A stretch of 64,000 nt of DNA from Bifidobacterium sp. B4142 (GTDB lineage: Bacteria; Actinomycetota; Actinomycetes; Actinomycetales; Bifidobacteriaceae): contig NZ_JAFNMJ010000005.1 in assembly GCF_026537325.1 (NCBI RefSeq), forward strand, positions 87,399 to 151,398, written 5' to 3'. The position numbers were made by a program, and so were the translations under genes. The notes under the pieces were generated by a model. That model was not told where the DNA came from and searched no databases. It was given only the letters and a program-made list of their open reading frames with translations. This document shows, piece after piece, positions 20,254 through 25,227 of this stretch (position 1 is its first letter; every line of letters begins with the position of its first letter).

Positions 20254-20348
20254 TCTTCCGCCAAGACGCGACGCGACGCCGCCGAGATTGACTTGAGGGG
20301 ACACTATGGTAAGCTAACCATTTGTGTGATTCTTCGGTCACACGGCAT

Positions 20349-20422
20349 GGGCCTGTAGCTCAGCTGGTTAGAGCGCATCCCTGATAAGGATGAGGTCGGA
20401 GGTTCAAGTCCTCCCAGGCCCA
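20349..20422 (+). tRNA. tRNA-Ile (GAT)
   Basis: 74 bases with a complete cloverleaf: acceptor GGGCCTG/CAGGCCC, D-arm, anticodon GAT (20383-20385) between TCCCT/AAGGA, T-arm GGTTCAAGTCC, discriminator A. The 3' CCA is not encoded. Confidence 0.97.
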
Positions 20423-20460
20423 CGCATTTCTTGTGTGGTTGAAGTTCTTTTCACATTCAC

Positions 20461-20533
20461 GGGGCTATGGCGCAGCTGGTAGCGCATCTGCTTTGCAAGC
20501 AGAGGGTCGCCGGTTCGAATCCGGCTAGCTCCA
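20461..20533 (+). tRNA. tRNA-Ala (TGC)
   Basis: 73 bases with acceptor GGGGCTA/TAGCTCC (one G-U), anticodon TGC (20494-20496) in loop TTTGCAA, T-arm CCGGTTCGAATCCGG, discriminator A, no encoded CCA. It lies 38 bases after tRNA-Ile. AT-rich accessory DNA begins right after it, so it could be an integration site, but no repeat of its 3' end was found. Confidence 0.97.
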
Positions 20534-20873
20534 CAGATAGTATTTCCGAGGCTTTCGAGGCTTTTTTACATCATCTTTGGCAAATATCGACTATCCAACT
20601 ACGACTACTACAGCGTGGATAACACTGATCCAGTGGGGTGGACACTCTAGCAGCTGAAGCTCATACAACCGAATGTATGACCACACCCCGCCGAATCATT
20701 CTATGTAAAGAGAACTTTCAACAATACTGCAAGCAGGAACAGAGAAATCAATTATAAAAGCCTGCAATCACTATTGAGTTACACAGTCGGTTTCAACACT
20801 GATGAAGAAGGAAATGGTCAGAACTCTTGCTCTCCGATAAAATGACCACCTTAAACCGGTGACTGAGCAGGAT
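20534..20873. other. AT-rich non-coding stretch after tRNA-Ala
   Basis: No gene seen. It includes the tandem 'GAGGCTTTCGAGGCTTTTTT' just after the tRNA, a T-rich element that could end tRNA transcription. Base composition is clearly lower in GC than the core genes. Confidence 0.5.
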
Positions 20874-21115
20874 TCACTTAACTGAAAAAGGCTGAGGGAT
20901 AAAATGCAATCTTCCGCTTTGATGCGGCTGGTCACTTTCAGCTTTAATGTATTCCGAGAACGCTCGCGAAATACGAATAATGCATGCAAGAGTATTCCTT
21001 AAGTGGATGCACTCCGAATTCCCCTGATAATACTGCTCGTAATTCTTGCATATTCTTTGTTCTAGATCTGACATCAATTTTGCTGCTATGCGTCGTATGG
21101 GCATACTGTTACAGA
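20874..21115 (-). pseudogene. Out-of-frame C-terminal part of the Abi gene
   Basis: These bases continue the Abi coding sequence in the frame reached if the C12 tract is one base longer. The frame is open from the tract down to 20874 and encodes Abi-like sequence ('LVYDYSSFLCMFLIV', 'RIAAKLMSDLEQRICKNY'). With C13 (or C10) the protein would be about 356 residues, the normal Abi_2 length. As sequenced, it is untranslated beyond the frameshift. Confidence 0.75.
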
Positions 21116-21943
21116 CTATAAGAAACATGCACAAGAAACTTGAATAGTCATAGACAAGTTGCGACTTCTTAATCGTACTCGGAATAGGCGCCGGGGGGGG
21201 GGGGTATCCATTTGGAATAAATCGCACAAACATCCATCAACAAACTCAGTCTGAGGCACATGGCCATGCTTGTTTGTCCTATCCACATCCAACAGTAACG
21301 GGGCACTATGCGATACCGCATTTCGCAACCTACGGAAGTTGCCAAAAAATTTTGTAGCATTGTCTCTCAGATGCAATGACTCCAGATACTTCATATATGA
21401 ATCAATCAAATCACCCAGATTGAAGCATTCCCATAAGTTCCATATTTCTGGGTCAGGGAAATATTTGCGAACCATAGCATCTGAATAAGGAGAATATTTA
21501 AGCTTAATTCCTGTCTTGCCAGGCCTGCCATCGTGCTGATTTCGATAGCCAGTCTTTTCATCAAATACAAAGCGATCATATGGATCAACCAGCTTTGCAA
21601 TTCGTCTGCCGTCAAGCTCAGAATTTGACATCAATAAATTATTGAATCGCACTTTCAAATCATGTTCCGCGTTTGCTACCAAATATTCCAGTGCCATCCT
21701 GAGTTCATAGTCAATGACCGCCAAATCTTTGAGTACAGCGAAATCGAGATTCTTGTACTTCCCGTCTTCGTGCTTGTTGAAATTAGAAGCATATCGCTTA
21801 ATCCAAAATAGGTAGGTGTTCGCAGATAGATATGCTTTAGCGGATTCCTCATTACAGATATCGAATACGATGCCGTCGTTTTGCAAATTAGCAATTTGAA
21901 AATCGAGGCTTTTAGCCAGACACATGCGCTTTGAACTGTCCAC
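21116..21943 (-). CDS. Abi-family (Abi_2 / HEPN) abortive-infection-like protein, frameshifted at a C12 tract
   Basis: 275 residues as sequenced. The start is a GTG at 21943, or ATG at 21925. The N-terminus ('LDFQIANLQNDGIVF', 'ANTYLFWIKRYA') and the core look like Abi_2 proteins. The HEPN RNase motif Rx4H is present as RNAVSH (about residue 211). Such proteins are linked to phage defence by RNA cleavage in other bacteria; that role here is inference. A run of 12 C (minus strand, 21193-21204) follows Met-Asp-Thr. After it, the current frame adds about 20 unlikely residues rich in Arg and stops, while another frame holds the expected C-terminus. The gene stands alone in AT-rich DNA next to tRNA genes, suggesting acquisition. 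It has no visible antitoxin partner. Confidence 0.75.
   Translation of the reverse strand: MDSSKRMCLAKSLDFQIANLQNDGIVFDICNEESAKAYLSANTYLFWIKRYASNFNKHEDGKYKNLDFAVLKDLAVIDYELRMALEYLVANAEHDLKVRFNNLLMSNSELDGRRIAKLVDPYDRFVFDEKTGYRNQHDGRPGKTGIKLKYSPYSDAMVRKYFPDPEIWNLWECFNLGDLIDSYMKYLESLHLRDNATKFFGNFRRLRNAVSHSAPLLLDVDRTNKHGHVPQTEFVDGCLCDLFQMDTPPPRRLFRVRLRSRNLSMTIQVSCACFL
21193..21204. repeat. Homopolymer tract, G12 (+) / C12 (-)
   Basis: Twelve G in a row on the + strand inside the abi gene. C12 gives a 275-residue protein ending at 21116, C13 or C10 gives 356 residues (with C10 one residue shorter) ending at 20874, and C11 gives 257 residues ending at 21169. This is the layout of a slipped-strand contingency locus. 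Confidence 0.95.
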
Positions 21944-22020
21944 ATTGGCCCCCGCAGCTAAACTAATGGGGCATCCGCTTCGAAAAGCGCTGCCCCATTA
22001 GTGAAGAGCTGGCCAATGTG
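21941..22020. repeat. 80-bp nested palindrome at the abi start codon
   Basis: Outer arms CACATTGGCC (21941-21950) and GGCCAATGTG (22011-22020) are perfect. Inner arms ACTAATGGGGCA (21962-21973) and TGCCCCATTAGT (21991-22002) are perfect. A core CGCTT-CGAA-AAGCG completes the hairpin. The GTG start of abi lies in the outer arm. It may be a regulatory hairpin, a terminator for + strand transcription or a tiny mobile remnant. Confidence 0.85.
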
Positions 22021-22500
22021 ACCAACTCCCTTTTGACTTTGTACCTACAATGCTAATTACATATAAGCATCTGTCAATTTATTTCGCGCGTGTTGAAAAT
22101 ATGGTTTTGACGCAAACAAAGGATAGATTTTTCTGTTTTTTCAAGGACTTATCAGGTGCTGCTGAGTATGTTTTCTGAAGTTATGAATACCGAGCAAATT
22201 TCATAATATTTAAAACTGATCTGTTGTCGATTCAACATAACAGCGCCAACAAAGTGCTCGATCTAAAGATAAAATTACTAAACATTTGATCTTTGCTGTT
22301 CACTGAGATCAGACTAGTTATATAAGTGCTGCTTTCATAGTCAAACTTACTGATTCTGCACTCGAGAGAAACATAGAAACCTGCATTAACGCCATTAAGT
22401 TCAGCGCTGGTCGTTGAAGCCAGGACGACTAATTTGCTGCTTTCCGAACAATGAAAAGAGACCGAACCCATGCAGATCCATATTCGTTTTCCGACTGACA
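22021..22500. other. AT-rich non-coding stretch between abi and nhaC
   Basis: No supported gene on either strand. Short open frames have no ribosome site and no recognisable protein character. Confidence 0.5.
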
Positions 22501-22540
22501 AGAAAAGCGCCACAACAGGTACTGCCCAGTGGTGGCGCTA
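22501..22540 (-). terminator. Intrinsic terminator of the nhaC operon
   Basis: On the minus strand, stem AGCGCCAC/GTGGCGCT (22507-22514 with 22533-22540) is followed directly by TTTTCTT, 25 bases after the nhaC stop. Confidence 0.8.
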
Positions 22541-22564
22541 ATTAGCCATAACAGAGAAAAGGCT

Positions 22565-24046
22565 CTACGCTTCCTTCTCCTTATCCAGCTCAGCGAGCAT
22601 GGCCTTCTGCTCATCCGGCGTTAGCTTCCTGATGCCAATTCCTGTGTATCCCCAGATGGTGGCAAAGATCACGCCGGTCCAGCAGAGAGTTGCCCAAGGC
22701 ATATAGGAGAGCGTGGGCACCCCCAACGTGGCCGCCATGTAGGCGCCAGCAGCTGTCCAAGGCAGGATCGGCTCGAATATGGTGCCGGAGTCCTCTATGC
22801 TTCGCCCGAGATTGCAAGGATGCAGACCTCGACGAATGTAGGCAGGCCTCAACAGCTCGCCAGGCAGCAGGAGGGAGACCTGCCCGTTGCAGGTGGTGGA
22901 TATGGTCAGGATGCCGGTCAGCAGGGTGACGACAATCAACGAGCCAGTGCTCTTGCTGATCTTAAGCAGAGACTCCACTATCTTGTTCAAAGCCCCGGAG
23001 GCCGAAAGCACTCCTGCGAAGGAGAGGGCGCAGAACGCAATTAGAAGGGTGCTCATCATGCTCTCCATGCCACCCCGATTCAGCAGACTGGTGATGTCCT
23101 TGGCTGCGGGACCCAGGTTGAAGCCCTTGGGGAGCATAGAGGTGTCGAATCCGTTGACAATGGCGTTGAACGCGTTGGTGACGGAAAAGCGCTGGATGAC
23201 GACAGCGTTGAACATGGCCACCGCCGACGAGAGCAGCATGACTGGAATAGTCGGCTTCTTCCACGCCGACCCGATCAGGATGATCAGGAGTGGTATAAGC
23301 AGCATGGGCACGTTCCAGGTGAAAGCCTGCGAAAGCGTGTTGTTCATCTCGGCGACTTTGTCAAAGCCACGGCCGCCTGTGGACTGGACTCCACGGCCCG
23401 CCACAAACATGACTATCGATGCCACCAGCAAGGAGGGGAAGGTGGTCCACAACAGGTGCTTCATATGCGTGAACACATTCACATGGGTGATGGCCGCAGC
23501 CAGGTTGGTGTCTCCGGACAGAGGGGAAAGCTTGTCTCCGAAATAGGCGCCACTGACCACTGCACCAGCGACGATGGCGGGATTGATGCCATCCATGCCC
23601 AGCGCCACTCCCATGAAGGCCACGCCAATGGTACCTGCGGAACCCCAGGAGGTTCCCGTGCAGACCGAAGTGATGACCGTGACCAGCAGAGCCGTCAGAT
23701 AGAGGTACTTGGGCGATACGATCTTGAGGCCGAAGTAAACCATCATGGGAATGGTTCCGCCGATCATCCAGGATCCGATAAGCATGCCCACCACTATCAG
23801 AATCAGCATGGCAGGCATGATCCCGGCGATCTTCTCGGCTATGGTGTTGAGCATCTCATCGTATCCGTGGCCAAGCATGTAGGCGATGATCGCTGCCACC
23901 ACGGCAGCCATGATAAGCATCGGTTCAGCGGGAAGTTCCAGCCAGATAGCCCCAACCCCCATAAACACCGCCATGGCGATAATTGGAGTCAGTGCCAAGA
24001 GCAGGGTGGGGGAACGCTGCTCTCTTTGTTTCCTTTCCTTCGTCAT
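22565..24046 (-). CDS. nhaC: NhaC-family Na+/H+ antiporter
   Basis: A 493-residue membrane protein of NhaC length with about 12 helices. Diagnostic segments are 'SWGSAGTIGVAFMGVA' and 'SGAYFGDKLSPLSGDTNLAAA'. NhaC proteins exchange Na+ for H+; some relatives couple organic acids or amino acids (e.g. malate/lactate), and the operon with a PLP enzyme hints at such a role here. The ATG overlaps the stop of the upstream aminotransferase gene as ATGA, so the two are translationally coupled. It ends with a clear terminator. Confidence 0.93.
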   Translation of the reverse strand: MTKERKQREQRSPTLLLALTPIIAMAVFMGVGAIWLELPAEPMLIMAAVVAAIIAYMLGHGYDEMLNTIAEKIAGIMPAMLILIVVGMLIGSWMIGGTIPMMVYFGLKIVSPKYLYLTALLVTVITSVCTGTSWGSAGTIGVAFMGVALGMDGINPAIVAGAVVSGAYFGDKLSPLSGDTNLAAAITHVNVFTHMKHLLWTTFPSLLVASIVMFVAGRGVQSTGGRGFDKVAEMNNTLSQAFTWNVPMLLIPLLIILIGSAWKKPTIPVMLLSSAVAMFNAVVIQRFSVTNAFNAIVNGFDTSMLPKGFNLGPAAKDITSLLNRGGMESMMSTLLIAFCALSFAGVLSASGALNKIVESLLKISKSTGSLIVVTLLTGILTISTTCNGQVSLLLPGELLRPAYIRRGLHPCNLGRSIEDSGTIFEPILPWTAAGAYMAATLGVPTLSYMPWATLCWTGVIFATIWGYTGIGIRKLTPDEQKAMLAELDKEKEA

Positions 24047-25227
24047 TGCAGGGTCACCTTTCTCGTGGAAGTACCAAGCGCCCGATGCATGCGCGACAGT
24101 GCCTCGGTCAGAATCGGCGTAGTTGTTGCCAGGTTGATACGCACAAAACCGCTGCCGCCCAGACCGAAGTCAGTCCCCGGATCCAGCTTCAGACCCTGGT
24201 CAGTCAGCCGCTTTTCGATCTCCTCATCCTGAAGTCCCAGCCCTCTCATATCTATCCAGGCCAGATAGGTGCCTTCAGGTTCGATCAGCTTCACGCCATC
24301 CATTCCGGCAACGCAGTCGCGCAAAAGATTGGTGTGCTTCTCGAGCTCAGCAAGAAGCTCGTCCAACCAGTCTGCGCAATGGTCATATCCTGCCTGAGTA
24401 GCAACTTGTGCAAAATAGCGGGGATTATGGCAGCCGGCATCATCGATGGCCTTTTCCACCTTGTGCCGCAGATCAGCATCAGGAACGACGATGTTGGCAG
24501 TTTCCAACCCAGCGATGTTGAAGGTTTTCCCCGGGGAAGTAAAGGAGATGCCTCCAGCTGCCTCGGGCGAAGAGGTCAGATAAGGCTGGAATCGATATCC
24601 TGAATGGATCAGATCAGCATGGAACTCATCTGAGATGACCAGAACATCATGCTTGGCGGCAGCCTTGGCAACCTTAGCCAGTTCGTCACGGGTCCATACA
24701 CGACCGGTGGGGTTATGCGGGTTGGTGATTACCATCGCATTGGCCTTGTCAAGCAGGTCTTCAAGCGCATCAAAATCGAACCGGTATTTTCCCTGGCCGT
24801 CTATCTTCAGCATCCATGGAAGGACCTTGCACCCTGCGGCCTTGATCGCCGTTGGGGTGGGCGAATATGCAGGATAGGGAACGATCACCGAGCTGACGGG
24901 CGGCAGAGCCTCCCTGAGTATGGCCGGCAAGGATTCTACCATTCTTCCTACCGGCACCAGACTGGCGGGTCTGATCTGCCAGCCGTGGCGCCTTTTGAAC
25001 CAGTCGCACACTGACTGTCTATACGAGGGGTCCAGGTAAGTGTAGCAGAAATCACCCACCTGAGCACGCTCGACCACAGCCTGGACCAACGGGTCCGGGG
25101 CTTTGAAATCCATATCTGCCACCGACAGGGATATGGCATCGTCACCGCAGTTGCGATGTGCATCATCCCAACGGATGCTATGTATTCTTCCCAGATCCTG
25201 GGTTGAAACGGGATGTAGAAGACCCAT
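24043..25227 (-). CDS. MalY/PatB-type PLP-dependent aminotransferase / C-S lyase
   Basis: About 394 residues, fold-type I. The PLP lysine is in 'SPGKTFNIAGLETAN', with 'NPHNPTGRVWTRDEL' and 'VISDEFHADLIHSG' upstream, as in MalY/PatB cystathionine beta-lyases. It probably cleaves C-S bonds of cysteine conjugates or cystathionine, giving pyruvate, ammonia and a thiol. The start at MGLLHP (25227) is chosen since it gives the usual length, with AAGAAGGGAA some 11 bases upstream; frames up to 25305 are open. It lies between a YheO-type regulator and nhaC in one operon. Confidence 0.88.
   Translation of the reverse strand: MGLLHPVSTQDLGRIHSIRWDDAHRNCGDDAISLSVADMDFKAPDPLVQAVVERAQVGDFCYTYLDPSYRQSVCDWFKRRHGWQIRPASLVPVGRMVESLPAILREALPPVSSVIVPYPAYSPTPTAIKAAGCKVLPWMLKIDGQGKYRFDFDALEDLLDKANAMVITNPHNPTGRVWTRDELAKVAKAAAKHDVLVISDEFHADLIHSGYRFQPYLTSSPEAAGGISFTSPGKTFNIAGLETANIVVPDADLRHKVEKAIDDAGCHNPRYFAQVATQAGYDHCADWLDELLAELEKHTNLLRDCVAGMDGVKLIEPEGTYLAWIDMRGLGLQDEEIEKRLTDQGLKLDPGTDFGLGGSGFVRINLATTTPILTEALSRMHRALGTSTRKVTLQ

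Follow-up and report, generated by a model that had tools for sequence, protein, structure and literature searches.

A gene of Bifidobacterium sp. B4142 encoding an Abi_2/AbiD-type HEPN protein is broken in frame, after its HEPN core, at a run of twelve cytosines (C12), and comparison with relatives indicates that the sequence beyond the run is genuine gene. The reading that we favour, with modest confidence, is a functioning slippage switch in this AbiD/F gene. The product would be an AbiD/F-type HEPN ribonuclease, with growth arrest or cell death as its predicted effect on phage infection; in the part of the gene that encodes a loop behind the HEPN core, a short C run stands as C12 in this genome. 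Slippage of DNA polymerase at C12 would move the gene between frames, one tract phase giving the whole protein and the other two ending soon after the HEPN core with loss of the conserved C-terminal part, and the population would be a mix of full-length and truncated alleles. Four points are inferred: slippage at C12 itself, inactivity of the truncated proteins, a role against phage and whatever benefit the cell might gain.

The gene, its tract and its surroundings

The assignment to the Abi/HEPN group in a sequence-only reading of this DNA is borne out by a match to PF07751 (Abi_2) of 45.5 bits, well above the curated cut-off of 25.6, by a PADLOC match to AbiD (34.5 bits), and by the motif RNAVSH, of which R207, N208, A209 and H212 are invariant in the 8 aligned sequences; the HEPN motif pattern is given as R-polar-xxx-H in the available passages of a study of AbiF (PMC12373285). 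The features of the locus are collected in Table 1.

Table 1. Features at the Abi_2 gene, with positions counted in the window (the whole stretch of DNA analysed, 64 kb in length)
Feature	Position	Strand	Basis or remark
Abi_2/AbiD-type HEPN gene, GTG start at 21943, 275 aa	21116..21943	-	ORF list, Pfam, PADLOC
Abi_2 domain, residues 38-216, profile positions 2-182 of 184	21296..21832	-	Pfam; coordinates derived from residues
HEPN catalytic-type motif RNAVSH, residues 207-212	21308..21325	-	alignment
C12 tract (coding strand; G12 on the + strand)	21193..21204	-	site of frame change
C-terminal part of the gene, 105 codons open in another frame	20874..21192	-	frame analysis; ESL0199 comparison
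80-nt hairpin upstream of the gene, outer stem pairing with the GTG start codon	21941..22020	-	fold
Promoter-like hexamers TTGACA-16-TAGCAT just before the hairpin	22050..22077	-	weak evidence
Low G+C stretch (38-44%) between tRNA-Ala and the antiporter gene	20500..22499	.	flanks 56-64%

The C12 tract lies after the HEPN core, exactly where it had been placed, and is the point at which the frame of the Abi_2 gene changes. It is the sole homopolymer of at least 8 nucleotides, of any base, within the window, and 0.06 G/C runs of at least 12 are expected there under a first-order Markov model of the window. The proposed layout of three states was recovered: viewed as separate pieces, the three frames beyond the tract stay open for 24 codons (the present frame, in which the ORF of 275 residues was found as described), 7 codons and 105 codons, the last running to 20874. 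In the assembly this C-terminal part is out of frame with the HEPN core; in Bifidobacterium asteroides ESL0199 the two are in frame. The conceptual protein of 356 residues put forward for the long frame is a product of arithmetic, no joined sequence having been built, and it roughly fits the natural protein of ESL0199 with its 354 residues. An Abi_2 alignment across the tract had been proposed as a check on homology; the Abi_2 profile stops before C12 and no Pfam family scores above cut-off on the downstream ORF, so that Pfam cannot decide whether homology spans the tract. The description of the sequence as Abi-like as far as 20874 therefore finds no backing in Pfam, and holds by way of the intact gene of ESL0199 and of homologs in phages and plasmids.

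The G+C content of the surrounding stretch, compared with that of its flanks (Table 1), suggests that the AbiD/F gene was probably acquired horizontally. Integration at the tRNA-Ala end was considered, but the repeats listed for 20300-24300 include none of that end. A search for the end of the neighbouring antiporter gene picked out 7 of the 27 genomes of the genus, four of which have the Abi gene or a remnant of it; in the remaining three no Abi gene was found in the stretch fetched. The host is a Bifidobacterium of bee-gut type. Its genome has a second Abi_2 gene (L002, C18:1-440), which belongs to another subgroup and is cut by the contig start, and Abi_2 matches are present in 11 of the 27 genus genomes.

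Relatives of the gene and the age of the frameshift

In ESL0199 (L010) a 97% identical gene forms a single open frame of 354 codons plus stop, and the genome G003, which may be that of the same strain, carries the same protein in a stop-to-stop frame of 372 codons. Residues 13-325 of the ESL0199 protein match Streptococcus satellite phages (28.5% identity, E 2e-16), and plasmid Abi proteins are matched as well. The search hit 15 phage records out of 50,697 and 13 plasmid records out of 72,556; at least 80% of the query is covered in 8 of the 15 and 3 of the 13, and most of the other hits stop close to the tract position or short of it. An alignment that includes six of these phage and plasmid proteins shows the shared region continuing after the tract position, and places the tract site itself in a small proline-containing loop that is 3-4 residues longer than in those six. 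Thus, the intact frame of ESL0199 and the homology of phage and plasmid proteins beyond the tract indicate that the sequence past C12 is a genuine part of the gene, as had been supposed. A profile search of the PDB gave no relevant match (best E 0.15), an AlphaFold2 model of the ESL0199 protein on a two-sequence alignment reached a mean pLDDT of only 35, and no relative turned up in one scan of viral contigs.

Before the tract the gene differs from that of ESL0199 by 7 nonsynonymous and 13 synonymous changes (pN/pS 0.14), the neighbouring ygjP gene giving 0.15 in the same comparison; after the tract there is one difference, a nonsynonymous one, in 315 sites, and no second break (a further stop or indel) is present relative to ESL0199. 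The pN/pS value and the lack of a second break indicate that selection constrained the gene over most of the period after the lineages split and that the frameshift is recent, within the reach of pairwise rates, which are blind to very late relaxation of selection.

The tract has a different history. At the same site ESL0199 has A followed by C6, a run that hardly qualifies as a long tract, where C12 stands here, and the stretch is 5 nt longer here; the comparison is with one relative and between species. On this evidence the long tract is not a conserved device, two sequences being too few for the direction of change. Selection has not kept it across relatives either: it is absent from ESL0199, and the other two copies, in G008 and B. 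mellis (G013, L011), are remnants that lack this part of the gene, only the gene start remaining at the same site. Beyond the B. mellis remnant lies a frame of 628 residues (L011:3625-5508) for which Pfam gave no match and PADLOC a weak one (PDC-M58A, 16.6 bits); it may be a further defence gene at a site of turnover. None of 14 other Abi_2 stretches (L012-L025) has a G/C run of at least 7 inside its Abi_2 gene, and all three such runs found in these stretches lie outside the Abi_2 frame; Abi_2 genes are thus generally without such tracts. The sequence-only reading had proposed a maintained bet-hedging switch held in the OFF state, and that proposal is not supported by these observations: the intact relative has no long tract, two relatives keep remnants, and the tract has no parallel in the other Abi_2 genes.

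The same observations are what one-way decay would leave behind. In such decay the frameshift would be the first inactivating mutation of a departing defence gene, and slippage only its cause. The two relatives with mere remnants, together with the absence of in-gene tracts from the 14 other stretches, make easy loss a strong rival to the slippage switch; the intact ESL0199 gene without a long tract points the same way, and residue 47, which is R in G003, G008 and B. mellis but W here, hints slightly at relaxed selection. However, outside the break the gene is open and, against ESL0199, constrained, as the substitution rates on both sides of the tract show, and the early signs that decay should leave, further stops and indels, are absent, although very late relaxation may escape pairwise rates. 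We hold decay to be possible, if on balance improbable.

Evidence on slippage at the tract

The genome of Bifidobacterium sp. B4142 has 30 G-tracts of at least 10 nucleotides, of which 18 are at least 12 (a count that takes in a G85 run at one contig end and a G22 run close to another, both discussed below), and such tracts of at least 10 are present in 26 of the 27 genus genomes, with totals in G006 (98), G007 (69) and G002 (65) far above that of the present genome. When the 30 tracts were compared with all 26 of G003 and with 30 of the 35 of G008, six had a single counterpart, always in G008. The flanks of these six are 89-100% identical, and in every case the two genomes differ in tract length. 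For a seventh tract the match was to several tracts of a repeated family in G003, and 23, C12 included, matched no compared tract. The six differences between sister species indicate that G-tracts in these genomes change length over short times; together with the abundance of long G-tracts in the genus, they suggest that the C12 site is probably slippage-prone.

Slippage of this type of tract, on which the earlier reading had relied as general knowledge, has been measured elsewhere in Bifidobacterium. According to the available passages of a study of B. breve (PMC9187656), G-tracts there are measured replication-slippage switches, and for a tract annotated as G11, 37% of the population carried that length and 60% carried G12. 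A single consensus length, such as that of the present assembly, thus cannot define an ON or OFF state.

G-tracts are hard to count, and annotated lengths may be wrong (PMC9187656), which favours a miscounted tract: the gene would be mostly whole in the organism and the number of bases wrong in the assembly. Two other runs in this assembly resemble artefacts, namely a G85 at the very end of contig C18 (L075) and a G22 (L057, contig C1) located 117 bases before the end of its stretch; both are probable sequencing artefacts and call for caution over G-tract counts here. Yet the excess of 5 nt over ESL0199 is above the usual miscount of one or two, in our judgement. An error of that size would still leave a long tract, which would be slippery regardless of its exact length. 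A miscount as the whole explanation is unlikely. Of the suggestion that the tract might be an assembly error, what survives is that the exact count, and hence the present state of the gene, is unsure; the length difference speaks against a pure artefact.

Long homopolymers can also cause slippage during transcription. RNA polymerase would then slip on one DNA sequence and give a fixed small share of full-length protein, a low dose that would suit a toxic RNase; nothing in the present data sets this apart from slippage in replication, and we consider it highly improbable. Returning to replication slippage, we find a mixed population of tract lengths to be the most likely state here. The site is expected to give ON/OFF diversity in practice, with or without selection for a switch, and a working switch is plausible.

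Three other G-tracts of the genome, in L066 (C11:78510, G15), L074 (C16:39172, G15) and L056 (C1:783658, G13), are situated at the start of or inside long frames that carry RCC1-like repeats and Flg_new domains. Just before the tract, L066 and L074 each have, in another frame, a piece resembling a signal peptide, which is the layout of a surface-protein slippage switch. Among the other genomes, G007 has four Abi_2 matches, two of which (L007 and L012) adjoin frames with RCC1-like repeats, as judged by eye from the translations.

The leader hairpin and comparison with known systems

The stretch of 96 nt around the hairpin upstream of the gene has a predicted fold of -50.5 kcal/mol (z -5.58), and none of 200 shuffles was as low; a raw energy as low was found in 22 of 5326 windows of 96 nt over the whole 64 kb, which is richer in G+C than this stretch. 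The hairpin is present in 4 of the 27 genus genomes, in one place each and always at this gene. In G003, whose stem is identical to that of the present genome, it folds at -49.5 kcal/mol (z -4.95), and in the two genomes where it accompanies gene remnants at -39.7 (z -3.93; G008) and -29.0 (z -0.62; B. mellis). The weaker folds beside the remnants are suggestive only of a hairpin that weakens or is lost where the gene is broken, there being four cases, among which that of G008 still folds well. Promoter-like sites in the stretch are not above chance (4 found, 5.0 expected).

The motif RF03085, which lies upstream of many abiF genes, was looked for in 20300-22700 with E values of up to 10 allowed, and beside the six fetched phage and plasmid relatives with a limit of 0.5; neither search found it. 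Other Rfam families were ruled out as the identity of the hairpin, none coming near its gathering score, and so was a dispersed repeat, since the hairpin occupies one place per genome in the four genomes that have it.

The hairpin may form a second, independent layer of control, holding translation down or acting as an RNA partner. Joined with the tract it would make a two-lock defence RNase, in which a heritable slippage switch would set which cells can make the whole HEPN effector and a locus-specific start-codon hairpin would be the other lock; a gut symbiont would then hedge its bets on abortive infection at the level of the population. This fuller proposal strikes us as rather doubtful, and within it the hairpin may also be an RNA antitoxin or a sensor. 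Abortive infection comes at a high price for the cell, and if only part of a clone were active, cost and immunity would be shared out by chance. If the switch is real, phage pressure could be traceable as change in tract length, and the start-codon hairpin is a testable lead on the silencing of AbiD/F genes that have no RF03085 RNA.

The gene resembles the AbiD/AbiD1/AbiF group of Abi_2 HEPN RNases in its Abi_2 domain, its R-N-x-x-x-H motif and, in the intact form of ESL0199, its length, but here the frame is broken at C12. Phase-variable restriction-modification and BREX systems likewise have simple coding-sequence repeats that switch defence genes; the familiar examples there are modification or methylation genes, whereas the gene described here encodes a HEPN effector. 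A slippage switch on a HEPN effector would, if true, be new as far as the open-licence literature shows.

AbiF of Clostridioides difficile, in the available passages on its RNA RCd22, has directly upstream a structured RNA, as is also found here, which acts as an antitoxin and contains the RF03085 motif; that RNA ends before the start codon, whereas the present hairpin is not of RF03085 and overlaps the start codon (PMC12373285). The sortase-dependent pili of B. breve, in the same genus, are the nearest likeness for the tract: an intragenic G/C tract of 9-13 sets the frame there as it would here, but, so far as the available passages of that study go, those tracts are near the start of surface genes and their slippage has been measured, whereas the present tract is late in a defence gene and its slippage is predicted (PMC9187656).
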